A DNA stretch of 64,000 nt from Stachybotrys elegans. Taxonomy: Eukaryota > Ascomycota > Sordariomycetes > Hypocreales > Stachybotryaceae. The position numbers and the translations under genes were made by a program. The notes beneath the pieces were generated by a model. The model made no database searches, was not told where the DNA came from, and saw nothing but the letters and a program-made list of their open reading frames with translations. The stretch lies in contig JAGPNK010000012.1 of the NCBI GenBank assembly GCA_020746835.1, forward strand, positions 372,001 through 436,000, given 5' to 3'. This document shows positions 2,045-49,972 of the stretch, in pieces. Each line of letters opens with the position of its first letter. Within the stretch, counting starts at the first letter, position 1.

Positions 2045-2844
2045 TCACTGCCCCGTCCTCTGGTTCCTCTCATCAGGATCGAACCACTCACCGAACATTC
2101 CAGCCCCCATGAATTGCAGGACATCCATAAAGGTTTCCCAAAACTCAGGATCCAAGCGCCCTACAGTCCGCTCCATGGCTAAATCTAGGCCTTGGAAGGC
2201 GTTGTCCAGGGCTTCAAGCTCCGAAGGAGCAAGAGCAGCAGCAATGGCGGCTGAACGGCGAAGGAAAGTGTCGAGAGCTTGTTGAGCTTCGGAGTCGGCA
2301 GCTTGCTCCTGTCGAGGCATGTCCATTGGGGACACACCATCAAATGACCGCTGCAAGAGAGGGAGGCCTGCAGGAAGGGATCGAGGGACTGGCCCAGTCC
2401 ACGGAACCAAGGCAAGCCCGGGTTCATTATTAGCCACCGGAGTGTTATGGATGCATCTCCATAAGCTTCCTACAGGGTTCATGGACTTTGATTAGATTAT
2501 ATCGAGATAATAAGGGCGAGACAAAACTTACCATCGCCAGCATTAATCATTCTCAAGGCTTGAAATAGCCTGATGCCGCGGCGCCGGCGTTCACCACGAT
2601 AAGGGCAGTATGCCTCTGAGTGCCCTTCGAGCCCACACTGGGGATGGTTAGCAAGCAAGTGAGCTGGTGGAGAGAGAGGACATGCCGAAAAGCATGAAGA
2701 GTTGCCATTTCGAGGGGCGCTGCGGCCTCCTCGTCCTCGCAAGTTACCGCTATGGCCTTGAAGGGCTATACCATGTTCTTGTTCGTATTGGGCAAGAGCG
2801 GCGCCAAATCGTCCACCGAAATGTGCATCGTGTTGGAGTGCCAT
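2045..2844 (-). CDS. RGG / CCHC zinc-knuckle protein, copy 1 (lineage-specific family)
   Basis: Three exons: 2844-2686, 2637-2532 and 2469-2045, giving 229 aa. Exon 1 carries FGAALAQYEQEHG and a short Arg/Gly tract (residues 36-41). Splicing joins Cys51-Phe-Ser to Cys54, making a canonical CX2CX4HX4C knuckle (C51, C54, H59, C64). Exon 2 is exactly as long (106 nt) as in the copy at 8230-9590. Exon 3 has NEPGLALVPWTGPVP, LLQRSFDGVSPMDMPR and a C-terminal segment LDNAFQGLDLAMER that recurs in the decayed copies. The first intron needs a GC donor (GCATGT) with branch site GCTAAC; the second has GTAAGT and ends CTGTAG. The ATG sits directly after an ACAG acceptor, so a 5'-UTR intron is likely. 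Zinc knuckle plus RGG suggests nucleic-acid binding (inference). It could be a Gag-like relic, but no polymerase is near. Confidence 0.6.
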
Positions 2845-3380
2845 CTGTTCTCAGGTTAACCTCGGCGCTGGTGTGCAAACGCAAAGACTAGAATTGAACA
2901 TACCGCGAAAATCTTTCTGCTTGGCTTTTTTCTTCGATTTAGGTCGTGGTAAAATACTGAGAACTGTTGTCCAATGATCCGATTAGTTTCTTGGGACACT
3001 TGCTGACTTCTAGGCGTTGAGAGGCGTACCTGGGTATGTACGTAAAGTATTCGAAATCGAAGATGTTGAAGAAGAGAATAGAAAGAAGAGGGCAAGGTCG
3101 AGAGCGATAAAGGCCTTGACTCCACCTTACCAGTGATTGAATTTTCGCAATATGATATTCTTGTTGTGCGCCAGCTGCGAACAGTCGCAAAAGGTAGGGA
3201 GGGCAGTTCACGCAATGGTTGTCTTCATTCTTGGAACACCACGAACAGGAAATCCCACACATCCTCGAAACACCACTACATGTAGAATGATGACAGGCAA
3301 AGTTCCCAATTTGTTTGGTCACTTCACCCGTCGACAAAGTATGCAAAACACTGCCGCGTCAGCAATTCCTCTATTCACTT
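2845..3380 (-). other. Conserved 5' leader of zinc-knuckle copy 1
   Basis: This stretch resembles the DNA upstream of the copies at 5.4-5.7 kb and 9.6-10.0 kb, including the CTTCTAGGCGTTGAGAGGC block and a GAAGA-rich tract. A probable exon at about 2908-3005 ends GCG/GTATGT and would splice in phase to the ATG at 2844 (reading NRRKKPSRKIFA), matching the third copy. Whether it is coding or UTR is unresolved. Confidence 0.4.
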
Positions 3381-3414: not shown

Positions 3415-3654
3415 TGTGGGATTTCCCGTTCGTGTGCCCCAATGGGATAAAGACCAGTGACTTCGAGGAGGTCCCCTCTGACGATAAAGACGATATCAAA
3501 TCAATAGATAACAATTGGTTAGAAAATTCGATTGAGAAAAGCTTGATCACTATAGTGACAAATTTCTTGCTGAGATCGTCCTCATCGTTAGTGGGAGGTT
3601 TTTCAAAGCCGCTGGCGTGTGTCCCATTGGGGCACACGATCAAGAAATCCCACA
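3415..3654. repeat. 240-bp foldback element with about 100-bp inverted ends
   Basis: The left end reads TGTGGGATTTCCCGTTCGTG and continues through GTGCCCCAATGGGA. The right end is its diverged reverse complement and finishes in GAAATCCCACA. Pairing extends roughly 100 bp on each side, so the element could fold on itself like a MITE. The same end sequence occurs singly at 4088, 5227, 21914, 43643 and, inverted, at 50807. I found no clear target-site duplication and no coding capacity. Confidence 0.75.
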
Positions 3655-4246: not shown

Positions 4247-5226
4247 CTAATTTGGGAAATCGGAATTGGGCCCTTCACCCAACAGTCGTTGCTCAAGGCG
4301 TCGTAAGCCGAACCGAAAGAATGCCACCTCATCGGGATCCAAGTGCCCTAGAGCTGGGTGCAGGACTCGGAAGGCATACTCAAACGGCCACACGTTCCGT
4401 AGCAGCGGGACGGGCAGTCTTTGGCCACCGACAGCAGGGGCGGGCACGGGAGCGGGGCCGGACCAGCGGCAACGGCAGTGGAAGCGGCAGCACCATTGTC
4501 GTCCGCCTCCGAGCCGGCAGAAGACGCTATGGTCTCGACTCGCTGTCATTCCAGTAGACGGGTTCGTGGGCGAGGGGGGCCTGCCTGGTCGGCGAAGGCG
4601 GCGGCGGCGGCGCAGGCGGCATGCTGAGCTTCAAACGCCTGGTATGCCTCAAAGGCGCGGGCGGCTGCAGCATGGTATTCAGCATCAACGGCAGCGGCAG
4701 CGTCTTAAGCCTGACGGTTGGCTTCGGTGGCGGCAGGGCGGACTTGGAGGGGCTCGCGAGGGGCCCCAGGGGCGGCAGGAGCCTCAAGAAGGGCTCGGGT
4801 GGGAGGGGCCTCCACGTCCCGTTGCCACTGTCGAGGCATGTTGATAGGGGAGACACCATCGAACGACCGCTGGAGGAGAGAGGTCTCCCGGCTCGGATAC
4901 TGGGCTAGAATGGATCCTTCGCCACAAGTCTCCTGCATGGATATCAATTAGATGTTAGATCAAGATGGCGAGAGGCAAAACTTACCAGAGCATCAGCGAG
5001 TCGCTTAGCTCGCATCTTACTGATACCCCTTCGAGATCGCTCGTTTCGGTACAGGCAATCAGGCCCACGATGCCCTTAGGCCACACTATGGATAGTATTT
5101 GGGTTAGGAAGCTCATGGAGGGTTTCGGGTCGAAGAAATACCGAAAAACAGATTAGAGTACCATTTCGAGGGGTTCCATGGCCTCCTTACCACCGTGCTC
5201 TTTCACGTATCAGGACGGTGCTCGTC
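4247..5226 (-). pseudogene. Zinc-knuckle family copy 2, broken
   Basis: The exon 1 remnant reads PRNGTLICFS up to a GTATTT donor near 5149. The intron keeps a CCTAAC branch site and a CATAG acceptor, followed by the knuckle exon. That exon has lost bases near 5074-5081, so Cys-Gly-Leu falls out of frame with the following GHRGPDCLYRNERSRRGIS. The last exon keeps LLQRSFDGVSPINMPR and a long Ala/Pro/Arg-rich variable part but changes frame. A separate frame gives NAFRVLHPALGHLDPDE to the stop at 4247. The 5' part ends at the repeat starting at 5227, which probably truncated the gene. Confidence 0.65.
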
Positions 5227-5378
5227 TGTGGAATTTCCTGTTCGTGTGTCCCAATGGGATGAAGACCAGCGACTTCGAGGAGGCCCCTCTGGCGATAAAG
5301 ACGATATCAAATTAATAGATGACTTTTGACAAGAGAATTAGGTCGAGAAAAACGTGAGGCTTGTGGCTGTGGTGGTCG
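5227..5378 (+). repeat. Dispersed TGTGGG-end repeat
   Basis: Begins TGTGGAATTTCCTGTTCGTG and carries the inner blocks GATAAAGACGATATCAAAT and TTGTGGCTGTGG seen in the copies at 21914 and 50807. It sits exactly where the 5' end of zinc-knuckle copy 2 disappears. Only one end is present, so it is a solo end rather than a foldback. Confidence 0.7.
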
Positions 5379-8229: not shown

Positions 8230-9590
8230 CTAATCTGTCTTCTCCTTGGCTGCTCCAGCCATCTCGGCGTCGCCCTCCGCGTCTGTGCCTATCGGCTGCA
8301 TGTTTCGGAGGCCACCAGCCAGGGCGGCCACAGTACTCGCGGGCGAACCGGGACGGGTGGGGGGGGCACGAAGGGCTCGCGAACCTTGCAGCATCCCATC
8401 CAGCAACTCCGCGTTGGTCTCAGCGTATTCCGGCTGGGCCACCGCCATCTCGGCACGAAGGACCGCAAACGCCCTCTCAACCTCTTCTGCTGTATGCCCG
8501 GGTACCGGCACAGCAGGAGGAGGCATGGCAAGCCGGGCCAGAGCTTCGGCGGTCAGAGGGGCCTGGCCGGGGGGAGGGACCTGACCAGGAGGAGGGGCCT
8601 GGCCAGGAGGAGGGACGGGGCCAGGGCCAGGGCCAGCGGCAGCAGCAGCAGCGGCAGCACCACCACGATTGTCGCCCATCTCCGAGCCGGCGACAGTAGA
8701 CCCTATGGTCTGAGCTCGCCGCCATTCCAGCAGGAGGGGGTCGTGGGCGGGGGGGAGGCCTCGTTGGTCGGCGAGGGCGGCAAGGCGGGCTTGGAGCTCC
8801 TGCTGTTGTTGGCGGATGGCCGCCACTTGAGCCTCGTGGTAGGCTCGAGCCCAGGCAGCGTCTTGGGCCACACGAATGGCTTCGGCGGCGTCGGCGGCGG
8901 CAGCGGCGTCAGCGGTGGGAGCCTGGGCAGCGGCGGCGGCAGCAGCAGGAGGAGCACCGAGAAGGGCTCGGGCGGCCAGGTCGAGGGCGGCGGGGCCAGG
9001 CTCGATTGCTCGTCTCTCCAATCGAGGCATGTTCATGGGGGATATCCCATCGAACGACCGTTGAAGGAGGGGGAGCCCCTCGGGGAGTGACTGGGGAACT
9101 GGCCCAGTCCACGGAACCAAGGCAAGACCCGGCTCGTTGGCAACAGTCACTGGGCTGGAATGTATCTTCAGCCACAGCTCTCCTATAAGGACGTTAGATA
9201 TTGAATCTAGATGGTAGGGGCAAGTCAAAACTTACCATTCCTCTTATCAGCCAATTTCTTGGCCTGCACTCGACTGATGCCCCTTCGAGATCGTTCGTTT
9301 CGATAGGGGCAATCATGCTCACGGTGCCCTTCCAGACCACACTATGGATGGTATATGGGTTAGCAAGCTCACGGAGGGTAGAGTCGGATCGATCATACCG
9401 CAAAGCAGGCAGCAGGGAGATTTCGAGGGGCTCCGTGGCCTCCTCGTCCTCCTCGTCCTCCTCGGCCTCCTTGGCCGGCACCACCCTGCTTCACGTTATC
9501 TTGGCCTTTTTTAGGGGCCATACCATGCTTTTGCTCATATTGGGCGAGAGCTGCGCCATACCCTTCACCAAAAGTCTTGCGGTACGACAT
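8230..9590 (-). CDS. RGG / CCHC zinc-knuckle protein, copy 4 (best preserved)
   Basis: Three exons: 9590-9399, 9341-9236 and 9182-8230, giving 416 aa with no stop. Exon 1: MSYRKTFGEGYGAALAQYEQ, then a Gly/Arg tract with several RGG triplets (residues 36-53). The first intron (GTATGA donor, TTGCTAAC branch site, CATAG acceptor) removes two in-frame TGA, a TAA and a TAG, and joins Cys62 to Cys65. The result is CFACGLEGHREHDCPYR, a perfect CX2CX4HX4C knuckle (C62, C65, H70, C75) followed by a basic stretch. Exon 3 carries NEPGLALVPWTGPVPQSLP, LLQRSFDGISPMNMPR, then about 200 residues rich in Ala, Gln and Pro. The ATG directly follows an ACAG acceptor as in copy 1. Nucleic-acid binding is inferred from knuckle plus RGG; no function is known to me. 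The long antisense frames here are composition artefacts. Confidence 0.7.
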
Positions 9591-10100
9591 CTGTTCTCAC
9601 GTTAGTCTTGTCAATGTCATACGGTCTGACCATGCAGAAGCAGGTGCAATTAGTAAACGTGAAGAGTAGGGATGAACGTACGGTGAATTCTCTGCTTCTT
9701 GGCGTTCTTCTTCGATTGACCTGATGAAATATAGATCGCAAACTAACTTCCAATATCTGGTTAGTTCTTCCTGGGTCATGCTTCAAACCTGTGGTGACTT
9801 CTAGGCGTCGAGAGGCATACCTGTGCGTGCGCAGAAATTTTCAAATCGAAGGTGTTGAAGGAAAAAAGAAGAAGAATTCAAAGTCGAGAGGGAGAAGGGC
9901 TTTGGCTACGCGTTATCAGCGGTTAATTTTTGAAATCCGTGCAGTTGTGCGCCTTCGGCAGCCGCTCGCAGCTGTAGATAAGGCCACAATCTTTTGGCAG
10001 CGCATACCATCCCATATCCTGTAAGTGGTCATTAGTCTGATACTCAGGTCAACACCCGATGAAAGTGACAGCATTACCACGGCAGACGTATTCCGCGCGT
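9591..10100 (-). other. Conserved 5' leader of zinc-knuckle copy 4
   Basis: A probable exon at about 9682-9790 ends ACC/GTACGT, and the intron runs to the ACAG just before the ATG at 9590. Its frame reads TNQILEVSLRSIFHQVNRRR, comparable with the leader of copy 1. Further upstream are a GACTTCTAGGCGTCGAGAGGC block and GAAGAA-rich DNA, also shared with copy 1. I could not identify an upstream start codon. Confidence 0.4.
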
Positions 10101-10362
10101 TGTTCAGTCAAAGTATGCAAACACAGCCGACTCCATGGCATCTGAGACGTATTGACACATCACGCCGCGCAGCAATTTCTACCGACAACGTCCCTTGATG
10201 GAAGGCAGCGGGCTGAATGTCTTGCCGCGTCGGTGCTCTTCACAAGCCGTTAAGTCGACTTCCTTGCACTCGTTCGTGCTCGGCAGGGTTTGCCACTGAC
10301 TTGGTATAGCAGGCCGCCATGGTACGCGAAGACCCTAGAGCGTTAGAAGGTGATTCCTATGT

Positions 10363-10617
10363 TTACCAAAGACAGCCGTGTCTCTCAATATGCCTTTGAT
10401 TTCCATCTGTGCCGAGTCTTCCAGAGGGTGGTATCGCGCGCCATCCCGACAAGAATCCCGCCGACATCAGGTCGTAATTTTTGCACTCGACACAACATGC
10501 AATACCTTGCCGAAATTCTCCCTTATACTTGGAGTGGTCTGATCTTCGACGGTCCAGCCAAGACTCGCGGTTACACAGATTGGGATTGTCTTGTATGCGC
10601 GGGCATTGGCAGGACAA
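10363..10617 (-). pseudogene. Possible fragment of a GATA-like finger protein
   Basis: The minus strand reads NPNLCNRESWLDRRRSDHS and, 12 residues later, GIACCVECKNYDLMSAG. The order 'NPxxC ... CxxC + aromatic/basic' resembles modules 1 and 6 of the protein encoded at 11204-14264 (CANPQC ... CDGCVRYY). Only one module is visible, and no gene continues on either side. The match is weak and could be chance. Confidence 0.3.
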
Positions 10618-11203
10618 GCCTTACGTCTCCAAAATCTACTTCAATACTCGGACCTTATTTACAATATTGAAAGGAACATGTTCCCTTGCTCCCAAAACCG
10701 AGCGATCAGGGCAATGGTCGCATTCACGGGCATGTACATCGACTAGTCAGCCATCCCTACCTTACCCATGTCGGTTACTGCCGTGGCGGGCGTACCTGAC
10801 ACACCTTGCCATCTGGGGAAATGGATCGCCAAAATCTGGGGAAGCAGACGCCCATCAAAGCATCAGAACACCCAGCGCCAGCCAACACGTCCACACGTCT
10901 GCATAACTGCAAAATGTAGCCCATGCTCCCAGGGTGAAGCCTGCAGGCCTTGAGGCATTGAGGTATCGAGGCCTCAGGCCACTGGTGGGCCGTGTCCCAA
11001 TCGGGAATCGCCCACCCAGTACTGAGAAGAGAGGGAAGGAGCGGACGAGGAGGAGGAAGGACAGCAAGCTGGAAACGGATTCCGAAATTTTAGTTTTCAG
11101 AAATTGTCATTTACGAAGAATACACGATTTTACTGTCCAGATTCGTTTATTGTGTGATCCATTACTGTCCAGGTTCGTTATTGTTGTAATACTGATTGAC
11201 AGG

Positions 11204-14200
11204 ATGGCTCGACAGCAAAAGACCCCCAAGACCCCCAAGACCACTGGTGCGAGTGCCAGTGGCACCAAGAGTACCGCCAAAGCCACGGGCGGTACTTCCT
11301 CGAACTCAGTGGCATCGTCGAGCAGTTGTACGTACCGAGCCATTGGGACCGATATTGACTTATACTGATCATCTTACAGTGCTGCCGACCCCCTCCACCC
11401 GACCGACCCGGCGAACTGCTGCTGCAGCACGAGCCTCAATAGCCGAAGTCCTTTCTTCCATTGGCCATGAACGGTCTGGCCAAGCTCCTCATGAACGGTC
11501 TGAGGAAATTCTCCATGAAGGGTCTGGAGAAGATCTCCATGAAGGGTCTGGAGAAAGTCTCCATGAAGGGTCTGGAGCACGGTACCATGAAGGGTCTGGT
11601 TCCGAACATGACGACTCTGATTGCCATTCCGATTGTCAGTAGAGCTGTCAGTCGGACTGTCATTCGGATTGCTCTGATGACGAGGGTGAGGAGGAGCTGG
11701 AAGGACTTGAGGATATCCTCGAGGACGACCCGTACCTCGCGATCCCCGGAGAGGAGGTGGAAGATGAGGAAGATGGTGATGAAGACGAGGATGAAGACGA
11801 GGATGAAGACGAGGATGAAGACGAGGATGAGGACGATGACCAGTACCTCGACCCGAATGGGAAAGGGAAGCGTCCCGCCCGCACGTCAAAGAATCGTCGC
11901 CTGTCCAAGAAGCCCCGTGTCGATTCCCTCCCCATTTCGCACACCGACGCAGCGGCATGGGTTGAAGAATGCAATTGGCAGTACCAAGTACCCGATGATG
12001 ACGACGATATGGCGAGGTTTCGCGAAAAGATGCGTGCCATACTGGACGCACTGGCGGGATGGGCCCAGGCCATAGGGTCCGATTGGGAAGCGAATCGCGA
12101 CTGGATGAGGCAGAGAAGACCAGAACGAGAGATGACGGTCGGCTTCTATCGGCTGTTCAGATCAAAGCCGGCCAATGAGATCTTTGACCTCGTCACCAAT
12201 GGAATGCCATCCCAATCCCAGAAGGTCTTTGGATCGTGTAAGAACCCGACGGACCTGTTGGATCTTCCCGAAGCTTCGTTGGACCTCAAGCATCGTCTGA
12301 CGTACTTGGACATCCCCACTGGAGGCCAAGATGCTAAAGTCTACATCGGCTCCAGCTTGGCCAAGGCCGGTGGCGGTTACAGGTTAAGGCAGCACTGGAG
12401 AGCGGCCACTGGTCGCAGAGGAGATCACCGCCAGTATCACCAATACCTTTCAAGGCAAGGTGTGGAGGCCAACTTCCGGGTTGCTGGAGTGTACCAGAAT
12501 CCAGATCTGGAAATATTGGACCACACGTTCCAGGACAATTTCAGATGCCTTCCTGTGTTGCTCGAGGGACTCCTTTTTGTGTATCTTGGAGTTTATGTGT
12601 GGGAACCTGGCACTGAGGGATCCGGCTACCTACCTGCCAAGTCCTTTGATCTGGTCGACCGGATACGCTATGAAGTGAAGGGTCTCGTCTCCTTTGCACA
12701 ACATCGGCTTAACCAGGCATGGCCTTTGGTCCAAGGTCCCAATGGAGGCATGAGTCGGGCACGGCAATGCGCAAATCCGCAATGTCTACGCCCATTCAAG
12801 GGGAATAAGGATCCAGTCGTGCCTGGTGCGAAGGTCGCGATTGGTCGTTATCATACTGAATCGGATCCCCTGGGATCGGTATATTGCGATGGCTGTGTGA
12901 GATACTACAGGAAGCACAATGCGCACCGCTCTAGAGAAGGACAAATCAATCCCAGATGGCGGTTTGAGCAGGACCCGCAGACCATCAACCAAGCCTGGCT
13001 TAGTAGCCATGAGCGCAAGTGTCACAATACGGACTGTGGTGTATCGATCCACCCTCAGGCAACATTGTTCGGTTTGGAGGCAGGCATCAGATGCCAGAGG
13101 TGCTTCACATATAGGAGGCGAACACAGCGTGAGTGGTCATCCGACGATGAACCCCATGCCGAGGGGCAATGTTCGAGATGCGGCAAAGCAGGAAGTCGTG
13201 TCTTTGACTCGATGTACCTTGACATGACAGATTCGAGACAAATCATACGCAATGATTTGTGCATGCAGTGTTACGCCTTGCGTTGCTCGTTCCTATCTGA
13301 TGATATTCCTCCTGAGCCGCAACGATGTTACTTTTCCGTTTGCCACAACGCAAAGCACGAAGGAAATATCGCGCCTGCCCTGATAGAGAACATCGAAGAG
13401 CACACCTGGCGCTGCTACCGGTGTGATTATGCTTATATTGCACAGGGCAACGTCGAGCTCTCCTACTCTGATCTCAATGCACCTGTTCCCAATCTCCCTC
13501 CTGGGCCCATCTCCAGCCATAGGTTCAACGAAACCAAGTGCATAAGCTGTGATGCATACGGCACTTGGTGGAAATGGATCAAGAAAGATTCGGGCTTCCA
13601 ATGCCAGGCTTGTGCTGGCCCTGAAGCATCTCTCTGCGGGAATCCACACTGCGATACCTTCCCGTTAAAGACATGGCCTGAATTATGCGATGATGGCCAG
13701 CCACGGTGCAAGCCGTGTAGAGAGTACCGCAAGTATCATAAGAAAGACAGAGAAGGCCCATATAAACCCAAGAGCCGGGTTCTGTCTCCTGGGGTGGGCA
13801 CATGTGGAAATGAGGCTTGCGGCGCTGAGAACAAGAAGCTCTACTGGCATGACGGCATGAACATATGTCGCACCTGTCGGAAATACATGATAAAAAGAGG
13901 GAAGAATCGTGTCCCCGACAAGAATCGTGTCCCCCGGAAGAATCGTGTCCCCTTGGAGATACCTGTACTGCCAAATATATGCTCCAACTGCGGGCTGACA
14001 GGGTCTTCGAGGTACAGGACCAATGCGGGACGCCGACGGTGCTGCGCCTGCGATAGCTACTTTCGCAAGCATGATGGCATCGAGCGCCCAGAGAGCCTCT
14101 GGAATCCTCAGTCTCAGCCTCTGCCAGACATCTGCTTCAATTGCGGGACCACCTCTGCTGATCGATACACTGTCGCCAGGGCAGATGGGCACAAGAGGTG

Positions 14201-14264
14201 CAGAACATGCGCGAAATACCTCAGCAACCATGGCAGAGAAAGGCCAGTGCCAGGAACAGGCTGA
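11204..14264 (+). CDS. GIY-YIG nuclease-like protein with nine GATA-like zinc modules; one internal TAG
   Basis: Model: exon 1 at 11204-11327, intron GTACGT...TTACAG, exon 2 at 11380-14264, 1,002 codon positions. The N-terminus is Lys/Thr/Ser-rich, then six 8-residue HEGSG repeats (positions 70-117), an SDC-rich stretch broken by TAG at 11640-11642 (position 129), and a Glu/Asp run. Residues about 345-450 look like a GIY-YIG domain: KVYIGSS (VYIG 362-365), RLRQHWRAATGRRGDHRQY, NFRVAGVY and Glu437 in VLLEGLLFVYLGVY. From about residue 505 on, nine modules alternate CX4C or CX2C with a later CX2C; the last two read CSNC...CCAC and CFNCGTT...CRTC...NHGRERP, close to GATA fingers. No intron of frame-preserving length can remove the TAG. 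A product from the ATG at 12009 would keep all domains (751 aa). DNA binding and cutting are inferred. Confidence 0.7.
11463..11606 (+). repeat. 24-bp coding tandem repeat, six units
   Basis: Six successive 24-bp units of the form CTCCATGAAGGGTCTGGAGA plus four bases encode HEGSGEDL-type octapeptides. The three middle units are almost identical, so the array has expanded or been homogenised recently. A second coding array (GATGAAGACGAG units) follows from about 11763 and encodes the acidic run. Confidence 0.9.
13902..13955 (+). repeat. 18-bp coding tandem repeat, three units
   Basis: AAGAATCGTGTCCCC plus three variable bases occurs three times in frame and encodes KNRVPx. It forms a basic linker between the seventh and eighth zinc modules of the surrounding gene. 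Confidence 0.9.
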
Positions 14265-15182
14265 TGAGGACATCCAAGTGGATAGACGCTGCCTCATGAA
14301 GATGATTTGGATTGGCAGACGGCATGGAAAGAGGACACATTCCTTTCCTTGCATATTATATTGAACTAATGAAGCCTGATAGAGTAAACGTATTGACAGC
14401 GCGGAAAGATGACACATCCCTTTCCTTGCATATATATATATATTGGCCGAGGAAGCCATGGCTGAGTGGCCATGGTGGAGGCTACCAGGGCGACAGGCTG
14501 GCACCTTCACGTGGTGTCCTGGGTCAGTAACTATAGGCATGTCCAGATGGAGATGTCTTTGGTGAAGCTAAAACCAGCCTACATGCATGGTGAGTTGAGC
14601 ATGAAGTGGTGTTGTGGATAGGTAGACGATACAATGAAACCAAAACCAGACTACGCGTGGTAAAGGAGGGCGAAGTGAGTGTCGTGGCGTTCTTGTCCGC
14701 AATGATTGTTCGATGAGACGCCCCTATGGACATACCCTGACAGGAGAGACGGGCAATCGAGTCTGCTGCCGTGGCCGCTACGCAACCCCCATGTCTATTG
14801 GAGTGTCTTGGTGACCGTCCAGGCTGGTCTTGCTATTATCTGCAGCTGCTTGCCGACATTGAGGCCAACAATCAATTTACTGCGCTCCTCCTCCTCTCTC
14901 ATTACGAGTTCCGCACGACCCAAGGTGTCCAGCCATAGTGAAAGAAACTAAATCAGAGCTGGAGAGTGGCTTGAGATGGGCGAGGGTCATCAGCCCCAGC
15001 ATAAAACGTGAGGATCGGAAAGTAGTCTACGAGGCAAAGCTGTCGATGTACAAACAAGTATGCACTGTCCTAACGCCTGAATACATACATATACAACCAG
15101 ATAAATGAACAAGTGGATGCCGTCCACCATTTTCGCCTGGCACGTCCACTTATCGGCGTGCTTGTAATCATTTCACGTTATG
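14265..15182. other. Gene-free stretch with two small duplications
   Basis: A stretch of about 45 bp with GACACATTCCTTTCCTTGCATAT at about 14333 recurs at about 14409, followed by a TATATATATA run. A second pair (AAAACCAGCCTACATGCATGG and AAAACCAGACTACGCGTGG) lies at about 14569 and 14643. Nothing protein-coding is supported. The last 400 bases may hold the 3' end of the minus-strand gene that stops at 15183. Confidence 0.45.
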
Positions 15183-15830
15183 CTAAACTTCAACAGGGCC
15201 CTGACTACGCGTCTTGCGGGCGGTACGTCCGATTGGAGGGGGATTCTTCTCCTTCTTAGCCCTGACGGCACTCTTGGGGACGGCGTCCCCATTCATCTTC
15301 ATCTTCTTATCGGCGGGCTCGCAGGCAGTCATGGAGAAGGTCGAACCCCCGTTTGTCGCCTTGGGAGCCGGTCCCATCTTGCGCTTGTCGCCTGGAACGG
15401 CCTTGTCGGTAGGAGCAGCCTCAGGAACCTCTTCAGCGGCCGACATCTTGGGGGTAGACTTGGGTCCCTCCACGCCGGTGGTGACGGTAGGCTCGTCGGC
15501 CAGGTTCAGCACAGGGCGCGGAGTCCCCCCAGCCGGCGTATTGTTTTCCATGGGCGTCTCGGGGACCGACATGACTTCGACGGGCTTGGGCGGACTGACA
15601 GAAGGACCTGCGCCATCAGGAACGGCAGCCTTTGTCTCGGTCGCGTCCTTGGATGAGGCAGAAGGAACTACTACAGGCACGCCAGCTTGGGCTTCGGGAG
15701 CACCAGGCGCGGGCTCGGCGACTGTGCGCGTCAGTATGCTGTACACCAATGGTGATACGCACGATGTCGCAATGGCACGTCGACGCTGCGGCTTACCTTT
15801 GTCGATGGCGGGAGCGATGCCGTCGGCCAT
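15183..15830 (-). CDS. Conserved-type hypothetical protein, basic C-terminus
   Basis: ATG at 15830. A 75-bp intron (15796-15722, GTAAGC...GCACAG) is a multiple of three and leaves the frame open, but splicing is likely because its borders are good. The product is 190 aa: MADGIAPAIDKVAEPAPGAP, then a disordered Pro/Ala/Glu/Thr-rich body. The C-terminus is strongly basic (DKKMKMNGD, RAKKEKNPPPIGRTARKTRS), which suggests nuclear or nucleic-acid association. No domain is recognised. It is divergently arranged with DPM1, about 870 bp apart. Function unknown. Confidence 0.7.
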   Translation of the reverse strand: MADGIAPAIDKGKPQRRRAIATSCVSPLVYSILTRTVAEPAPGAPEAQAGVPVVVPSASSKDATETKAAVPDGAGPSVSPPKPVEVMSVPETPMENNTPAGGTPRPVLNLADEPTVTTGVEGPKSTPKMSAAEEVPEAAPTDKAVPGDKRKMGPAPKATNGGSTFSMTACEPADKKMKMNGDAVPKSAVRAKKEKNPPPIGRTARKTRSQGPVEV

Positions 15831-17465
<1,635 letters not shown>

Positions 17466-17541
17466 GCGGACAAGAATGGCCCATCATAGGTTGCGTTGGA
17501 CTCGGCGTTAAGGGGCAGGCATAGTAATAATACATGATATC

Positions 17542-18438
17542 CTACATGTTTCTCCCTCCCGTCACCATTAGAGTCTGCCCCGTCACGTAGGAGAGGAGTG
17601 GGCTTGCTAACGCCAGGATGCTGCTCGCCGCCTCTGTAGCCGTCCCGGGTCTCCTCAACGGGATATCCGCATACGCCGACTCCTCTCTCCCCTGGATCTG
17701 CTTCTGCGGGATTCCAATAGCAATCTTCTCCCCATCTGGACCCGTCACAAATGCACCGTCCTCCTTGGGCGCCGTCAGCCTCGTCAGAATATGCCCAAAG
17801 GCCACGGTGTTGGCACGCACGCCAAACGCCGGGCCCCATTCCTTGGCAATCGTCTTGGTGAAGCCCGTGATGCCCGCCTTGGCCAGCGCGTAGTTGAGCT
17901 GCCCAGCGTTACCGTGGATACCCGTCGTCGAGGATACATTTACGATGCAGCGCGGCTCGCCGTCCTTGACGCGGAAGAAGGGCGCTGCGGCGCGCACAAG
18001 TTGGAACGGCGCCGTGCAGTGTACGGCGATCATAGAGTCCCATTGCTTATCCGTCATTTTGTGAACCACACCGTCCCAAGTGTAGCCGGCATTGTTGACG
18101 ATGATGTGAATCTTGCCGTTGCCAAAGTCGGCAGCCTTCTGGACGAGGCTCTCTATGTACGCCTTGTCAAGCAAGTCGCCAGGAACGCTTATGGCCTGAC
18201 TTCCGATGCTGGCAGCAACCTCGTCGCATTTCTCTTTAATTTGTTAGTTTGAGCGTAGAAGCAACAATTGATACGTACTGGCGTCAATGTCGGCCACAAT
18301 GACTTTGGCGCCTTCGTTGGCAAACAGACGAGCAGCTTCGGCGCCAATGCCCTGCGCGGCACCCGTGATGATGGCTACCTGACCGGTTAATAAGCCACGC
18401 TTGAGGTGGGAAGCAATCTGTGAGACGCGGTCTGCCAT
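17542..18438 (-). CDS. Short-chain dehydrogenase/reductase (FabG-like)
   Basis: NAD(P)-dependent oxidoreductase. Exons 18438-18279 and 18233-17542 with a 45-bp intron give 283 aa. The ATG chosen (MADRVSQ) is the first true ATG; the upstream in-frame codon is GTG. It has the Rossmann motif TGAAQGIG (residues 25-32), VNNAGYTWDG around residue 100, Ser154/155 in NVSSTTGIHG and the catalytic Tyr168-x3-Lys172. The C-terminus RPGTATEAASSILALAS ... SYVTGQTLMVTGG is typical of 3-oxoacyl-ACP-reductase-like enzymes. The residues between 210 and 255 include an insertion with KEDGAFVTGPDG. The gene ends 77 bp from the DPM1 stop (convergent). Substrate unknown; a mitochondrial fatty-acid-synthesis or secondary role cannot be separated. 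Confidence 0.92.
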
Positions 18439-18657: not shown

Positions 18658-19936
18658 CTACAACTTAAAGTCTGCATTCGTCTTTTCCCAGCCAGCCGGT
18701 GTCTCATTCAGACCAGCCACCCGCTCCGCCAGCCTCAGCTTGAGGTTGCGACTCTTGTCTGTGCACAGCTCGTACGTGGTCGAGAGGTTGAAGAGCAGCG
18801 TGCGCGATGTCTGGCCTGCCCTTACCAGCCCCTCGAGCAGTTCCCGCCCCTGCGAGTGTCAACACGGAATCCCTGGAAAGTAGTGGCTGGCTTACCTCTT
18901 GCATCCTGCCGAGGTAGAGGAGACACACGGCTTTGTTCACGCCCACCATTTCATCGTCCAGGTCATCCAAACTCTGCCACTCCTCCAAAGCAGCCTCAAA
19001 GTCAGCGTCTGCCATGTTGCAGAGTGCCAATATCACCTTTTCGGCCGTCCCGCCCTCGCCAGAGCACTGCCTCGCACAGTCGCGCGCGTTTTCCACGTCA
19101 CCCACATGCAGCCAGAGCAAGGCTTTTGAGAGCACCATCTTGTCATCGCCTCGGTCCTTCAAGGATGCCAGGTGATGTGCCGCGCCAGCCGTATCCTCCA
19201 TGTCGATGAGCGCGCTCGCCACCTTGATCCCCAGATCGCGTAGACGTGCCTTCCACAGCTCTCTGGATGAGTTGTCGTGCTGAGCGGCGGCTTTAATGAT
19301 GTGATCGCGCGCCTCACGGGCGAGTTCGTGGTAGCTCATAACGGAGCGGCGGCGATCCCCAAAGCCCAATCCTTGCAGGCGCACAATCAGCACCCGTAGT
19401 TCCCACGGTACGAGATGCTCGCCCGTAGCATCGTCGACGTAGACTCGCGGATCGCTAAGGTCCTCGAGGGCTTTGACTTCCTGGGCCGCCAGCGGTGTGG
19501 CGTCAATTAAAGTCAGACATGCCAGCCTCGTGTAGAGCAGCTCAAAGATGCGCTTCGAGTCCCGGGGGTCTAGGGGACCGCTCGCACTGGAGCCCGTGAG
19601 TTCCTGGACTGCGGCTATGGCTGCGGCGCGGAAGTGGCCTTTGGCGATGAGGTCCTCGAGGGGCACGCTGGCGTCAGGCTGTTTGACCGAGTTGCGGAAA
19701 GCGGTGGGGACGTTGAGAGGCGTCAGCGGGTGGTAGATCTCGGGGCGGAGCAGAAAGGAAAACTCCTTTGGCCGGGCTTCCCCAAGCTGGGGAACTGGCG
19801 ACGCTGCAGCCGAGCGTCGGATGCCTGACGGGCTTCTGAGCGGCGTGCTCTGCTGCGTTGGGCTGAGCTGCGCGGCCTGGGCTGCGGCCACAGCAGCGGA
19901 CGTCAAGGGGTCGCTGGTCACGTCAATACGAGTCAC
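18658..19936 (-). CDS. TRAPPC12-like TPR protein (5' end unresolved)
   Basis: Likely subunit of the TRAPP vesicle-tethering complex. Exons 19936-18896 and 18849-18658; the intron GTAAGC...TCGCAG restores the proper end GRELLEGLVRAGQTSRTLLF ... NETPAGWEKTNADFKL. About 410 residues are readable. A Ser/Thr/Pro-rich N-terminus leads into RPKEFSFLLRPEIYHPLTP, followed by helical TPR-type repeats (LLWLHVGDVENARDCARQC, VNKAVCLLYLGRMQE). The frame opens at a GTG, and no in-frame ATG precedes it. An upstream ATG near 19971 would need an intron I could not place. The complete N-terminus is therefore unknown. Identification rests on recalled family features. Confidence 0.75.
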
Positions 19937-21913: not shown

Positions 21914-22056
21914 TGTGGGATTTTCTCGTATGTCCCCATGGGTTACAGACCAGCGACTTCGACGAGACCCACTGATGATAAGACAATATCAAATCAATAG
22001 ACGTCAATTGTTGAGAAAATTCGGTTGAGAAGCTTGAGGCTTGTGGGTGCGGTGAT
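21914..22056 (+). repeat. Dispersed TGTGGG-end repeat
   Basis: Starts TGTGGGATTTTCTCGTATGT and carries the internal blocks TACAGACCAGCGACTTCGA, ATATCAAATCAATAGA and GCTTGAGGCTTGTGGGTG of the family. It lies directly behind a splice donor of the rhodopsin-like relic to its right. Confidence 0.75.
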
Positions 22057-36690: not shown

Positions 36691-39600
36691 ATGGCTGCCA
36701 CCAAAAAGTGCGTTTGTATCTCTGGGCCCAACTGCGACTACAATCTTAGCTGACAATGGTTAGGTTTCACTTTCGTCGGAGAATTCCTGGCGAGTCCATG
36801 AGTGGATTTATACAGGCGACCGAACTTGTCGATGTCGACGGCAAGGAAGAGCCCACCGAAGACAATGGCGACAATGACGTCGAGGAGGATGAAGACGAAG
36901 ATGAAGACTTCCCCCCCTTTTTCGACTTAGCCTCGGTCAAGCGCGCCCTCCGCAAAGGATGGGACCCAAACACGCAATGGGAGGAGGATGATATCATTGA
37001 GCAAGCTTCTGGCACCGGATGTGTAATCTTCGAGACGCTTCATCCCGGAGAAGACGTCTGGGCCAACTGGAACACACCTCTGCACAGAGCCCTTTGGCAC
37101 AACCAGTTTGACGTGGCCGGCCTTCTCATTGAGCACAAGGCCGATATAAACGGCCTCAATGCTTTGGGGCGCACAATTCTGCACGACGCGATCCAGCTGT
37201 GCCAGCCTCAATGGGTATCCTGGATCATTGACCGCGGGGCTGCGCTGGACACGCCCACAGAGGCTCGCTCCGTCAAAGAGGAGAAGACGAGTCCCGCCAA
37301 TGACCCCCGCACGCGCATCCTCACGCAGACAGGAGGTTGTATACCTCTCCAGGAAGCAATGGAGCGCGGATGTCTGGATCACGTGCGGATACTCGTGAAT
37401 GCGGGGGCTAACGTCAACGCCACGAGAGGGCCTTGGACACTGCTGGACCTTGCCTTGCTGCGCGGACAGCACGATGTGATGCAAGTCCTCTGGGATGCTG
37501 GCGCTCGCTTTTCTGCAACTGGCGATGTGGCAGCAGCGTTAGACGCTGATACAGTAAGTCTATTTAGGGACGAGTTTAACCAGCTGGTTAAGTTCTGCCG
37601 GGGATGTGAAGAACTCCCTCCGTCGTCATGCCACAAGGCATACCAGCTGCTTATCGGACAATCTGAAGGTTGCTGCTCTCAAACCTCTACTGAACCAGAC
37701 AGCTGCATCTCCAAGGCAAGCTCTACGATATATAAATTCTTTGGGATATTGTCGTCCATCACAACTACCAGAAATGTCTGGGCCCCTTCCCCGGAGTGGT
37801 GCGGTCCTTGCCAATCTGCCGTTCAACAAATGTCCATTACGGTATGCAGCGTGTCTGAGAGGGCTAAAAACGGCTGCGATCGCGTCAAGCACCATAACAG
37901 CATGAAAGCGCTCGAGGCTTCGGCCTCAGGGGGCTGCTCCCTGTGTTGCGTCTGGCTGGATGCCTTGAGACCCCTGGATGAGCCTACCAACACTCCCGAC
38001 GACGCAGAAGACTCGGTAGTCGAGTTGTGCATCCTGTGGTTAGAGAAGATGGGAGACGTACAAGTCACTTGTGGCGACAAACGGGGCTTTCTTGACCTGG
38101 TATTTCTCGATGGTAAGTGGCTCCCACCTTGACGCAGAACACTGACCTGAGATGTGCCACCCAGAGAATTTATTGTACAGTCCACTTGCCGCTGAGGATA
38201 GTATACAACTGGGGACCAGTTCTAAAAGAGCACTCGCCGTTGGCACGGCTTGGTTGCGCTATTGCAGGTCCAATCATCCCAACTGCCACCGGCTACAAGA
38301 CACTGCCGATCCAATTTTGCCCACCCGCGTCATCGACGTAGGTAACGACTCTTCTGCGACGCCTCGCATCTTCCTCTCTCACGGCTCTAGAGCACAATAC
38401 TGCGCGCTATCCTATTGCTGGGGGAAAACACCAAACCTGCGTACCGTCAAGAGCAACTTGCAACAGCACTGCGCTGGCCTCCCGCTAGGCAAGATACCCG
38501 CCATCATCAACGAGGCCATCTCCGTGACGCGGGATCTGGGTTTCCGATATCTGTGGGTTGATAGCCTCTGCATTGTGCAGGATGACATGGGTGATTGGAA
38601 CGCCGAGGCCGCGAGGATGAAGGATGTCTACGCCAACGCCGCCATCACACTGTCCTCTCTCACGTCATCGAGTAGCGACGAAGGCTTGTTCAAGCCGCGC
38701 AAAACTCGCTGCTCAAACCCTCTTCCGTTCCCCGTCTGTGCCCCACGATGGGAGCTTCCCTCTGCCCCTGGGAAAGTGCTCGCATGTCTCCCAGCCCTCG
38801 ACTCGCGCGACCAGCTGCTAAGTCCCGGGCCTATCCATACCCGCGGATGGACTCTTCAAGAGCAGTATCTAAGTACCAGAATTCTTTGGTTCGGTCTCAG
38901 CCATCTCCAGTGGCAGTGTGCATCTCTCCATGCAACCGAGGGTCTGGTTGAGGGCATTGCCAAGCCGTATTACCACGAGACAAAGGCCTTGAGCACCGCT
39001 ACACAGGCTAAAGTGCTTCTCCAAATGCCTTACGAAGAGAACCAGACAAGCGAAAACCCTCCAGTCTCTCGCGCGCAACATGTGGATAAAACGTACGGCG
39101 TTTGGGAGGACTTGGTCAACGAGTTCAGCAAGAGAGCTCTTACCAATGACACGGATCGAGTCCCCGCCTTGCTTGGTGTGTCTAAGCTACTGGAACCGTA
39201 TATCGAGTCTGAATACTTGGCAGGCATCTGGAAAGGTACAAGAACGCTCCGCAGTCTTCTGTGGCGTGCTGAAAAACCTGCAACTGCCAAGCCCCTGGAC
39301 ACGTATCCCTCCTGGACATGGGCATCGATATCCTCAGAGATATCGTACGAACTCGCTAGCGATACAGGAGGCGACCGCCCTGTGACGTGGGCAGCGTCTC
39401 TTGTCTCGACAGACACCTCTAGCACGGGGGCTTCACAGAGCCAAGTAAAAGGCACAATTACGCTGCGCGGCCATCTCAGTCTTCTAGAGAAGATGCCGGA
39501 AAAGGACGAGTACTCTTATACTGATCACGACTTTTACATGGACTATGAATCGGTGCAGCTTGAGCCGGGTAGTATCTGGCTCCTTACAATCATGAACCTG

Positions 39601-39789
39601 GGACAAGGGCCGCCGTACCAAGACTTTGGGTACCCACGCTGGCCCGGCGGCCGGCCTCCGGCAGCTATTCGCCTGCTTCTGCAGCCCGTAGATAATGTTC
39701 AGCCTCCTCGGTCCTTTAAGCGCGTTGGTATTTGTCGGGACGATGGGAACTATGCGAATGGTGAGATGGCAACAGTTACAATATGCTAG
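36691..39789 (+). CDS. Ankyrin-repeat HET-domain protein
   Basis: Exons 36691-36707 (MAATK plus two bases), 36764-38112 and 38165-39789 give 996 aa. An acidic N-terminus (DVEEDEDEDEDF) precedes ankyrin repeats at about residues 105-258 (TPLHRALWHNQFDVAGLLIE; IPLQEAMERGCLDHVRILVN; LLDLALLRGQHDVMQVLW). A Cys-rich middle follows (residues about 285-400). The HET domain starts with YCALSYCWG (about 534-542) and includes RYLWVDSLCIVQDDMGDW (about 585-600). HET proteins mediate non-self recognition and programmed cell death in filamentous fungi. Here ankyrin repeats come before the HET domain in one chain, without an NACHT or NB-ARC nucleotide-binding domain. Both introns have good borders. The partner and trigger are unknown. 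Confidence 0.88.
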
Positions 39790-43136: not shown

Positions 43137-44816
43137 GGGGGAAACGAAAGGGATGATGGATACAAGATGTATGTACACATCAAATTTTCATGCAGCAATA
43201 TGCCACAATAGTGTCCTGCTTCTCTAGTCAAGCTCTGGTTGTAAGGCAAGGTAGTTACAGTGGTTTAAACCTTGGCTGCTGGATAGGTGGACGACACATC
43301 CACGTCAACAGACTCATCTAGGCGAATGAAACGCGATCTGACAAAATCCTCACTCCTCCGGCTTCCCATAACCCTGGTGCCGAAATTGATGTCGTATTGG
43401 TGTCTTTGACGCTTCCAAGACATATATCGCTGTGCAGGCTCTGGTCTGCCGTAGAGCTGCCTTTCTTCAGGTACCCGTTAACGCCGACATATAGTAAAAG
43501 AGGCAACGATGTTGGCGATAGAGTGGGCTACAGCAACCCCCATAACAGCCCAGGTCGTTATGCGGACTTTGCCCTGTGAAGATTCTGAGGTATAGTGTCA
43601 AGACCGATAGTTTGAGAAATAGACAGGCTGCCACGTATACTGCGTGGGGTTTCCCGTTCGTGTGCCCCCATGAGATACAGGCCAGCGACTTCGAGGGGCC
43701 CCCTCTGACGATAAAGACGATAACAGATCAATAGATGAATTGGTTAGAAAATCCAACTAAGAAAAGGCTGACATATCTAGAAGCCGGAAATATCATGGCA
43801 AGATGAAAGAAAACAGTGCTTGGACTTGGGCTTGTCCAAATGTCGCGCCAACGGATTCGGAAATTGGGCGACAATTGTGCACCTTGAAAGGAAGGGTCAC
43901 CCTGTGCGGCACAGTTCACGACCGGACAAGGAATGATCCCTCTGTTCCACTATTTGGACGCATCTCGAGGCACCTCGCATATGCAGATGTGGTCAGATAG
44001 GATGATGTTGGCTTGTAAAATATGCCACTTGGGTAAGGCAGTGCGACCAGTCCACACCGCCATGACCAAGGTGGAAAGAGCCCTGGTACCAACTGCATTA
44101 CCTTGCCTGCTTAGCAGGTAGAGGGGTGGTAAGCAAGCCACTCGGCCCTATTACTACCATGGTGGTGTTTGGCACAACCAACAGTTACATCTACACTGCA
44201 TATCCTTGGTAACCCCGCCTTTCGAGCTAAGAGACCACAGCTAGCACTGCCAACAGCCATACTACTTCCTTTCGGCATATGCCTTGGGACTTGCTGTGGT
44301 GTGTTGCATTGGTTAGAGCAGAGACCAAATAGTGAAACTTGAAGCAGCCAAGGAGATTTCATTATTAATCCTATGCAGCCGGGAAACAAATGACAGAACG
44401 GAACCATCCTTGATATAGAATTACCTGGCACCATGATCTTCTTTAGGCACGCTCATTGTTGGGGACCGGAGAACACCTTCTTTGACCTATATCCACGCAC
44501 CCCCTCCCCCCAGGTTTGATCAGCGAAAAGCTTTCCGAATTGGCAATGGCCCATATGGCATACATGTTTTCGCTCTCTTTGATGCCATTAAGAGGCAAGC
44601 AGGGCCAGAAAAGCGGTGAAGAGGAAGATCAGATATACCAGAACGGACTTGGAGGAGGCGAGGGATTACAAGAAGGAACAGAGCAAACACACAAGATGGG
44701 GCAAAGTTACGTGAGAGTAATACTTGTGAGAATAGTTTCGGTTCGTAGCCTTAATACACGAGAGAGGAAGGTTGCCTCCTCCAAGCCGCTCCAGTCTTGT
44801 CATTGCCTATACCAGC
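43137..44816. other. Gene-free region containing a dispersed repeat
   Basis: Holds the repeat copy at 43643 and otherwise only short frames (up to about 110 codons) that I cannot support. The plus-strand frame at 44516-44848 overlaps the end of the P450 gene in antisense. Confidence 0.4.
43643..43772 (+). repeat. Dispersed TGTGGG-end repeat, left member of an inverted pair
   Basis: Diverged copy (GTGGGGTTTCCCGTTCGTGT onward) with the blocks GACGATAAAGACGATA and ATTGGTTAGAAAATCC. Its inner side points toward the P450 gene. The copy ending at 50807 is inverted relative to it. Confidence 0.7.
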
Positions 44817-47691: not shown

Positions 47692-49972
47692 ATGTCACAA
47701 CAACTCTATACATACTCGAAGCTTACAGATCCGGCAAAAGACATTCGACTTGTTACTATCCTTCCTGGTGGAGAAGACGACGGGTTGAAACTCAGGATCA
47801 CGCACGTTTCCCTGGAAAGACTGGACCATCGACATGAACCGGCCAGAGATTTAGACCACGCTCGGGAGAGCTTTCCTGAAGGTTGGGAGGCGTACAAGTC
47901 TCTTGAAGGACGGATTTTGTACATCCATAAACAGAAATCTCTGATTCTATCGACCACGTGGCAGCATCCGAATTCCAGCTTCACTCCGTTGGAGCAGAGC
48001 ACCGAAGCGGTCAAAGGGACCCGGGGCCAGGGTCCCACTTACGAAGCGCTGTCATATATCTGGGGCGTAGAGAATGATCCTTTAGAAGTCCTGATTGATC
48101 TGTCTTCCAACGACTCAAAAGACAATGTTGCCGAGATACAGGTCGAGGTCTCAACTGCTCCTCTGCAATACGCTTCACTCTCAGTGCGGCAGAACCTTGA
48201 AGGCTCGCTCCGGCATCTGAGAAGTATGGACTCGGAGAGAGTAGTCTGGATTGACGCCATCTGTATCAATCAAGCCGACGTGGTGGAGAGGAACGCCCAG
48301 GTATCTCGCATCGGAGACATATTCAAGAAAGCCGAGCGTGTCATTGTCTGGGTCGGACCATCCACTGATGATAGCCAGGTCGCCATTCAGACCCTCGACT
48401 ACATTGGCAAGCAAGTGGTGTCGACGACCGATCGCCGCCTTGCACCAGCACCAGATGCTAGCGAGAAAACATGGTATGAATCCTCCGTTCAGCTGCCGTT
48501 CGACGACAAGACATGGGCGGCTATCAATAGCCTGCTTCGGCGCCCCTGGTTCGAGCGGCTGTGGGTAGTGCAGGAAGCGCATCTGGCTCGCAGGGGATTG
48601 TTCCTGTGTGGCGAGGACGAACTAGATTGGATGACCTTTCGCTATGCCATCCTAGCCCTGTGGTACAATAAGGCCGCATCGTGGACCTTGCCTCCAGTGA
48701 TGAGGCTGATCGGAAACTTGGTGGAGCTACTTCCAGAAAAGCATCCCATCTCAGACATTTTCTATCAAGTCTACAACAGATCATGCACTGACCCCCGGGA
48801 CCGAGTTTACGGTCTCCACGGACTGTTCCCGCCAAGTTTCAAGAAGTTGATCCCCCCAGACTACACACTCTCGGTTGGGAATGTTTACAGAGACGTAACG
48901 ATTGCTCACATCAACTACTCCAAGCGCCTTGAGTTTCTCCGGCGTTGTCTTGTGGAGAAGCCCGAAGAGAAGACGGACCCTTCGTGGGTCCCGGACCTTT
49001 CTTCCAACCTGAAGATTACACGAAGGATGGACTGGCAGTTTGCAGCTGGACACTCTCGGTGCGAGGTGTCCTTTGATATGCCAAACCAGTTAAACGCGAC
49101 AGGCATTTGTTGTGCAACCATTACGGACGTCCACCCGCCTCTACCGCCTGGCGTGGGTGTTGTGGAATGTATAAGTTCGGTGCGAGGATGGGCATCCAAC
49201 GATCTGGACTCGGGTACATACGTTACCGGGGGAAGTATACGTGAAGCACATGCCAGAACACTGACTGGAAATGCGCTCAACGACAGGTTCCCGGCGCGCG
49301 ACTATGCGGGGTCTTTTGATGAGTGGCTCAAGCAAAACTCACCCACGGCTCTCTTTGGTGAGAGAGCATCTACACCTCTTTCGTCTGACTCGAACCCGAC
49401 GCCTATGGAGAAGCTAGCTCTATCTTTACTTCCAGGCCGTGCGTGGTTCATGACTGAGGAAGGCTACTTTGGTCTGGCACCACGAATCGCTCGTGCAGGT
49501 GAGTGTGTCAAGTGAGATATTGTCGAAGGAACTAACTTAACTCGTTCTAGGGGATATGGTTGTTGTTTTCCTCGGCTGCGAGTCCCCTATCCTCGTGCGT
49601 CCACGGCCTAACAAGACCTTCCAGGTCTTGGGTGAATGCTTCGTGTATGGTCTCAACGACGCCAACGCACTCCTCGGCCCCCTTCCATCGCCCTGGTCGG
49701 CGCATGTCTTTGACGACCCAACCGGACTGTTTACAATCCTGCGATTCTACAACTCTGAAACCAAGACGACACAGGATGAAGACCCCAGACTTGGCCCGCT
49801 GGCGGAGGAGTGGGAGGCCATGGAGCGCAAGGAGAGGACCTCGGAAGATCCGCGCATCTTTGCGTACTTTATGAATAAGAAGACGGGAGAGATTGTCAAC
49901 TCTGATCCGAGGATGGAACCACAGGTTTTGAGAGAGAGAGGCGTAGAGTTGGAGACATTTGCCTTGATCTGA
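47692..49972 (+). CDS. HET-domain protein (heterokaryon-incompatibility type)
   Basis: Exons 47692-49498 and 49551-49972 (52-bp intron GTGAGT...TTCTAG) give 742 aa. The HET domain begins with YEALSYIWG (residues about 117-125) and continues with the segment LRHLRSMDSERVVWIDAICI and then NQADVVERNAQVSRIGDIFK, the classic blocks. RPWFERLWVVQE and DPRDRVYGLHGLFP are the usual conserved stretches behind it. The second exon supplies the standard HET-protein ending: GDMVVVFLGCESPILVRP ... VLGECFVYGLNDANALLG. No NACHT, ankyrin or WD40 part is present. Such proteins act in self/non-self recognition. It lies within the segment bounded by inverted repeats, 8 kb from another HET gene. Confidence 0.93.

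Follow-up and report, generated by a model that had tools for sequence, protein, structure and literature searches.

A candidate GIY-YIG-type nuclease joined to an array of nine Cys4 modules in the fungus Stachybotrys elegans

The stretch of DNA analysed here (the window) comprises 64,000 nucleotides of the Stachybotrys elegans genome and carries at 11204-14264 a gene for which the original prediction had proposed a GIY-YIG nuclease-like domain fused to nine GATA-like zinc modules. The quoted motifs, e.g. KVYIGSS, are present in the translation of the plus-strand frame ending at 14264. The 873 codons of its main open frame (Table 1) are free of stops, while base shuffles contained a mean of 37.5 stops (minimum 22; n = 500 shuffles). 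Intron 1 is a credible real intron because its splice signals are good and because splicing yields a joined frame, ...LLPTPSTRPTRR, with an LPTP stretch that is also found N-terminally in four related proteins (P0004, P0005, P0006 and P0009; see below). The plus-strand frame of the proposed gene stands and its intron 1 is credible, but it is not one uninterrupted coding sequence, since a TAG codon lies within the linker. Nine candidates were obtained for a further intron of 38-150 nucleotides (nt) that would remove the TAG, none of them convincing by eye. The next in-frame ATG is at 12009, and a start there would cost part of the cap domain. The TAG may be spliced out, or it may be a sequencing error or a null allele. 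The residue number Glu437 given in the original prediction was reproduced exactly, but only by counting the TAG as a residue (ATG at 11204, intron 11328-11379, stop at 14264). The TAG aside, the observation holds.

Table 1. Features of the nuclease-array gene (positions in the window)
Feature	Position	Strand	Basis or remark
Putative exon 1, begins MARQQKTPKTPK...	11204..11327	+	Translation; sole support the LPTP stretch right after the intron
Intron 1, 52 nt, GTACGT...TACTGAT...TTACAG	11328..11379	+	Splice signals and joined frame
Low-complexity N-terminal linker, five 24-nt direct repeats (HEGSG type)	11380..11639	+	
In-frame TAG within linker	11640..11642	+	Same frame open on either side
Main open frame, 873 codons and TGA stop	11643..14264	+	
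Helical N-cap domain, conserved in family	11925..12284	+	Six helices in AlphaFold2 (AF2) model; alignments
GIY-YIG-type nuclease domain	12285..12737	+	Alignments, AF2 model, active-site residue set
Active-site candidate Y183	12303..12305	+	
Active-site candidate Y196	12342..12344	+	
Active-site candidate R209	12381..12383	+	
Active-site candidate H213	12393..12395	+	
Active-site candidate E270	12564..12566	+	
Active-site candidate N319	12711..12713	+	
Cys4 module M1, C-x4-C-x33-C-x2-C	12768..12896	+	
Cys4 module M2, C-x4-C-x18-C-x2-C	13020..13103	+	
Cys4 module M3	13170..13271	+	
Cys4 module M4	13326..13424	+	
Cys4 module M5, C-x2-C-x17-C-x2-C	13539..13613	+	
Cys4 module M6	13635..13718	+	In profile A5
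Cys4 module M7	13803..13877	+	In profile A5
Cys4 module M8, GATA-like	13980..14051	+	PF00320 15.5 bits, cut-off 26.8
Cys4 module M9, GATA-like, C-x2-C-x18-C-x2-C...NHGRERP	14133..14210	+	No PF00320 match alone

The GIY-YIG order originally read from the letters is borne out by the strands, helices and active-site residues, and Asn319 adds a sixth residue that the earlier reading had not contained. The predicted structure of the nuclease region has the expected topology with the beta-beta-alpha-beta-alpha core of the GIY-YIG superfamily. The residue set was compared with those of I-BmoI and Eco29kI as described in an excerpt of PMC3161791. Tyr, Tyr, Arg, His and Glu are invariant in 9/9 rows of the alignment, and Asn is likewise present in 9/9 rows. 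In P0002 the Arg and His were placed at RLVAH by this alignment (A10), from which P0007 (no YIG stretch) as well as P0009 and P0010 (both end early) were omitted, the domain being partly missing in them.

The C-terminal 499 residues contain 39 cysteines, and counting by pattern recovered the nine non-overlapping modules of the type C-x2/4-C...C-x2-C that had been proposed. Residue shuffles contained a mean of 0.65 such modules with a maximum of 4, and none of 20,000 reached nine. A GATA likeness is supported for the distal modules, yet not for M2, and M9 alone gave no match to the GATA family PF00320. The PF00320 cut-off was not reached by any module; only M8 matched at all, the other eight did not. 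A profile of 16 modules chosen by hand, mostly distal ones (A5), had GATA-3 (E 1.3e-5) and GATA-1 (7e-5) as top chains in the PDB, both of them two-finger chains; RNase H chains appeared further down, from 0.06. When the complete window protein served as query, residues 742-831 (M8-M9) matched chains of GATA-4 (E 0.0021) and GATA-1 (E 0.0028). M2 is the module most alike across the five proteins compared (mean of 43% outside the cysteines). Outside the cysteines, the likeness among modules M8-M10 of P0001 is 43-56%, compared with 23-40% for the other pairs of M7-M11, which would fit growth of the array by duplication in this protein. Values of 100% likeness between M5 and M6 were discarded as an artefact of overlapping cut-outs.

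The search of the genome covered 61 contigs with 43.4 Mb, and copy numbers from it are lower bounds. It yielded at least two full copies and one remnant. The paralogue at C59:1715852-1718455 (minus strand) lies in a single open frame of 971 codons, which holds the cap, the nuclease and ten modules, and shares 31% identity with the window protein (BLASTP). A third copy at C59:1736622-1737184 (plus strand) is a decayed remnant of modules. From 5.8 billion proteins, ten relatives (P0001-P0010) were obtained by a word-limited search with candidates restricted to proteins of similar length. Nine of the ten stem from other genomes, among them Fusarium sp. MPI-SDFR-AT-0072, Fusarium sp. LHS14.1, F. 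ambrosium and Cylindrodendrum hubeiense; P0009 (S. elegans B0I35DRAFT_409501) matches the C59 paralogue with 100% identity in the aligned part, which covers 23% of the query. The latter case exposes a truncated public gene model: B0I35DRAFT_409501 (373 amino acids) breaks off within the nuclease domain, although the DNA at C59:1715852-1718764 is open through cap, nuclease and ten modules.

Six of the ten relatives (P0001-P0006) combine the nuclease domain with one or more Cys4 modules in a single protein, the other four being short or broken models. The original prediction had allowed for two separate genes joined by a model error. Both halves share one reading frame in homologues, none of which, among the proteins of similar length, had the two parts split, and an array without a nuclease part was seen in 0/10 relatives drawn from the same candidates. 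The fusion of nuclease and array is a family, not an accident. Counted by regular expression, the window protein has 9 modules, its paralogue 10, P0001 11, P0002 8 and P0003 7; the prematurely ending or broken P0004-P0007 have 4, 2, 1 and 0. The window copy is on the longest of 10 tree branches (1.82), and this long branch together with the decayed copies agrees with the fast, lineage-specific evolution that had been anticipated. The small number of matches in the word-limited search suggests that presence of the family may be patchy. Neither 15 pattern matches on viral contigs nor 23 on bacterial and archaeal contigs included a relative, and plasmids gave no match.

What is new compared with known systems is the domain architecture; the superfamilies involved are known ones. 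The N-terminal GIY-YIG endonuclease domain of UvrC (PDB 1yd6, 1ycz and 1yd5) is 15-16% identical to the fungal domain, but the fungal family has a long helical N-cap and extra helices ahead of the Asn, and in 8/8 relatives compared, though not in the window copy, the two Tyr are set apart by an additional 29-31 residues. The distal modules share with GATA fingers a first knuckle of the C-x-N-x-C type, a second knuckle C-x2-C and a tail like H-G-x-x-R-P. In contrast to GATA fingers, the Cys pairs lie anywhere between x13 and x37 apart, and the first knuckle often has the form C-x4-C. GATA factors carry one or two fingers, whereas the fungal arrays have 7-11 modules. SLX1, a eukaryotic GIY-YIG nuclease with a zinc-binding part like the fungal protein, consists of the GIY-YIG domain and one RING/PHD-type zinc domain, in contrast to the 7-11 Cys4 modules of the fungal family. 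The natural layout of nuclease and array resembles that of engineered zinc-finger nucleases. According to the excerpt of PMC3161791, I-TevI and I-BmoI likewise join an N-terminal nuclease to a C-terminal modular DNA-binding part and have an active site of Tyr, Tyr, Arg, His, Glu and Asn; unlike them, the fungal gene has a putative spliceosomal intron, no detected group I intron and nine Cys4 modules. In the literature searched, i.e. titles and beginnings of abstracts with few subscription journals, no fungal protein combining a GIY-YIG domain and a Cys4 array was described.

We favor the view, with a probability of roughly 60%, that the gene belongs to a fast-evolving hypocrealean family of presumably nuclear endonucleases, in which a cap and a GIY-YIG-type domain are followed by Cys4 modules, nine in the window protein, that would tether the nuclease to DNA. 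By analogy to known GIY-YIG enzymes, in which cleavage depends on a metal liganded by Glu, the domain would cleave or nick DNA by means of a divalent metal ion held by Glu270 amid the Tyr, Tyr, Arg, His and Asn residues. The distal, GATA-like part of the array would bind zinc and DNA, as its likeness to GATA fingers suggests. A zinc finger in the linker of I-TevI reportedly acts to set distance, and the proximal modules may, by analogy, do merely the same. Because the number of modules differs among members, the target or the affinity would shift between species. Decay of copies, the few relatives and the turnover of modules favor a role in intragenomic conflict, in which the enzyme would either control selfish DNA or be selfish itself, over one in housekeeping repair; this is the most likely role, with about even odds if the family reading holds. 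A bolder version, which we regard as unlikely, is a natural zinc-module nuclease in the nucleus of hypocrealean fungi, where a long, duplicating GATA-like array would read an extended site and, as modules are gained or lost, be directed to other targets from one lineage to the next, in the service of or against selfish DNA. If true, fungi would have independently evolved the zinc-finger-nuclease layout built by engineers, in a family that Pfam misses. A length-variable array on a nuclease would offer a direct system for testing how DNA-reading arrays are retargeted. Fungi act against selfish DNA by repeat-induced point mutation and RNA interference, and the family could serve to test whether they keep lineage-specific nucleases alongside these means.

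Several results weigh against the endonuclease reading. The profile checks with GIY-YIG, T5orf172 and GATA models did not give a match above a curated cut-off: PF01541 (GIY-YIG) was unmatched in the window protein, in the isolated domain and in nine members, and the 14 Pfam families at E <= 10 in the nine members include none of these models. The strongest of the 14 is Cytochrome_C7 (4.8e-5, one member); this and similar matches are taken, unchecked, for matches to the Cys pattern. Searching PDB sequences with domain profiles retrieved no GIY-YIG chain, only matches by acidic runs or chance. The alignment behind the structure model has only 8 rows, and the VIA-align Z of 3.3-3.5 is in the range where the tool warns. 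With A5, single GATA fingers in the two best chains had an independent E-value of only 0.05-0.9, a FYVE-type chain (0.0081) fell among the weaker GATA chains, and the M2 profile matched no GATA finger. The tree is weak with one of seven inner branches well supported. Kinship to T5orf172 (PF10544) was rejected, as there was no profile match and six such domains from this genome did not align collinearly by hhalign (P 0.037 and 0.072). Nothing usable came from Pfam and NCBIfam for the window protein, nor from PHROGs for four pieces of the nuclease domain. A Penelope-like layout of reverse transcriptase and GIY-YIG domain was not seen, no reverse transcriptase family being listed for the window protein or the nine members. 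The missing GIY-YIG profile match, the low VIA-align Z and the missing PDB sequence match would be expected if the first half were not a GIY-YIG domain at all, the motif match and the thin-alignment model being misleading, and the protein a zinc-module transcription regulator; we consider this quite improbable. The TAG raises a different doubt, as it may render the window copy non-functional. That this copy is a pseudogene, in which the TAG ends the protein ahead of the nuclease domain and only the C59 paralogue is functional, has a substantial chance somewhat short of even. The missing convincing intron over the TAG, the incomplete cap after a start at the downstream ATG, the longest branch and the presence of a decayed sister copy speak for it. 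On the other hand, 873 codons are open, all nine Cys sets are complete and the six active-site residues are retained, so that any loss must be recent; moreover, candidate introns over the TAG exist and an assembly error is possible. In view of the TAG the window may carry an allele that was disabled not long ago.

Two further explanations retain the nuclease and assign it another task. A structure-selective nuclease of repair or recombination like SLX1, with zinc modules that contact proteins or bind branched DNA and do not read sequence, would agree with the analogous joining of GIY-YIG and zinc-binding domains in SLX1, the kept catalytic residues and the ordinary genes downstream. RING and Cys-rich regions are listed among selected GIY-YIG members in a figure legend of PMC9071465. 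The genome, however, has a separate PF01541 locus at C59:625459 (48.6 bits) that is SLX1-like by eye in the DNA, copies of the family decay, the window branch is long and the distal modules resemble DNA-binding GATA fingers; a function of this kind therefore seems rather unlikely. A homing or mobile-element endonuclease, as considered in the original prediction, would spread its own gene via a cut in an empty target with the zinc array as its reading part. I-TevI and I-BmoI are precedents for such a design, copies are decayed and matches few, and the 10 kb upstream are rich in repeats. In addition, an inverted repeat of 67 nt (76% identity, one gap) brackets the gene at 8997-9063 and 14700-14765. 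Its local score of 52 exceeds the maximum of 32 among 387 random pairs of window pieces, i.e. it exceeds chance, which speaks for a bounded unit and led us to rate mobility somewhat higher. Yet a local repeat that recurs upstream at 2306-2428 and 4831-4878 includes the left arm, the right arm had no further genome match at E <= 10, and the two arms are probably fragments of that repeat. None of the three inverted-repeat pairs listed for the paralogue locus (L004) brackets the paralogue. Residence in a self-splicing intron was not indicated, since Rfam at its gathering score had no match in window 9000-17500 or in L004, and a test for Starship cargo found 0/41 listed genome matches of the DUF3435 captain on contigs C4 or C59. 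With these results and at least two full copies plus a remnant in the genome, mobility lacks direct support and is, in our judgement, an unlikely explanation.

Twelve frames of the window were scanned against Pfam. Matches were AA9 (1-528), glycosyltransferase family 2 (16782-17462), short-chain dehydrogenase (17545-18243), an acetyltransferase, ankyrin, two HET proteins, aldehyde dehydrogenase and subtilase, while three of the twelve frames, 8230-9225, 15183-15830 and 18707-19936, had no match. The two genes with HET (heterokaryon incompatibility) domains lie at 38152-39789 and 47692-49515. The AA9 gene and the nuclease gene are separated by about 10 kb, in which local repeats that have diverged and a 130-base repeat in two copies occur. 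The local repeats (2306-3151, 4435-5187 and 8604-9936) are 64-75% identical and overlap an Ala/Pro-rich frame at 8230-9228 (minus strand) that has no Pfam match. The repeat of about 130 bases occurs in the window at 3415-3545, 5227-5357, 21914-22037, 43644-43766 and 50677-50807; with 94-100% identity in 40 of the 43 genome rows listed (query place included) it looks like a recently active short interspersed element or one of the miniature inverted-repeat transposable element type. Immediately 3' of the gene, 14446-14580 is 76% identical to C23:2246716-2246841. An MTHFR gene and a PQ-loop gene are found near the paralogue.

A second GIY-like family of S. elegans is present at C34:2314706-2317846 (L029), C5:728035-728763 (L032) and C13:111246-112898 (L033) in open and decayed copies, with decayed relatives on C45, C23 and C34. 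Like the nuclease-array family it has the order Tyr, Tyr, Arg, His, Glu, and its tail GLNxxxPLxxG resembles LNQxWPLxQG of the latter; in contrast, a Cys4 array is not visible. Zinc-knuckle-like stretches were seen by eye upstream in L029 and L033. Comparison of the two families was collinear with P 0.14-0.17 when longer profiles were run against one sequence; other hhalign runs gave P 0.019-0.021, and a different stretch P 0.19. Kinship is thus a lead and not proven. Finally, a GIY-YIG match of 22.9 bits at C11:328537-328701 (L030) is followed, within one 614-codon frame, by what appears by eye to be the helicase-like ATPase motif GDPGTGKT.
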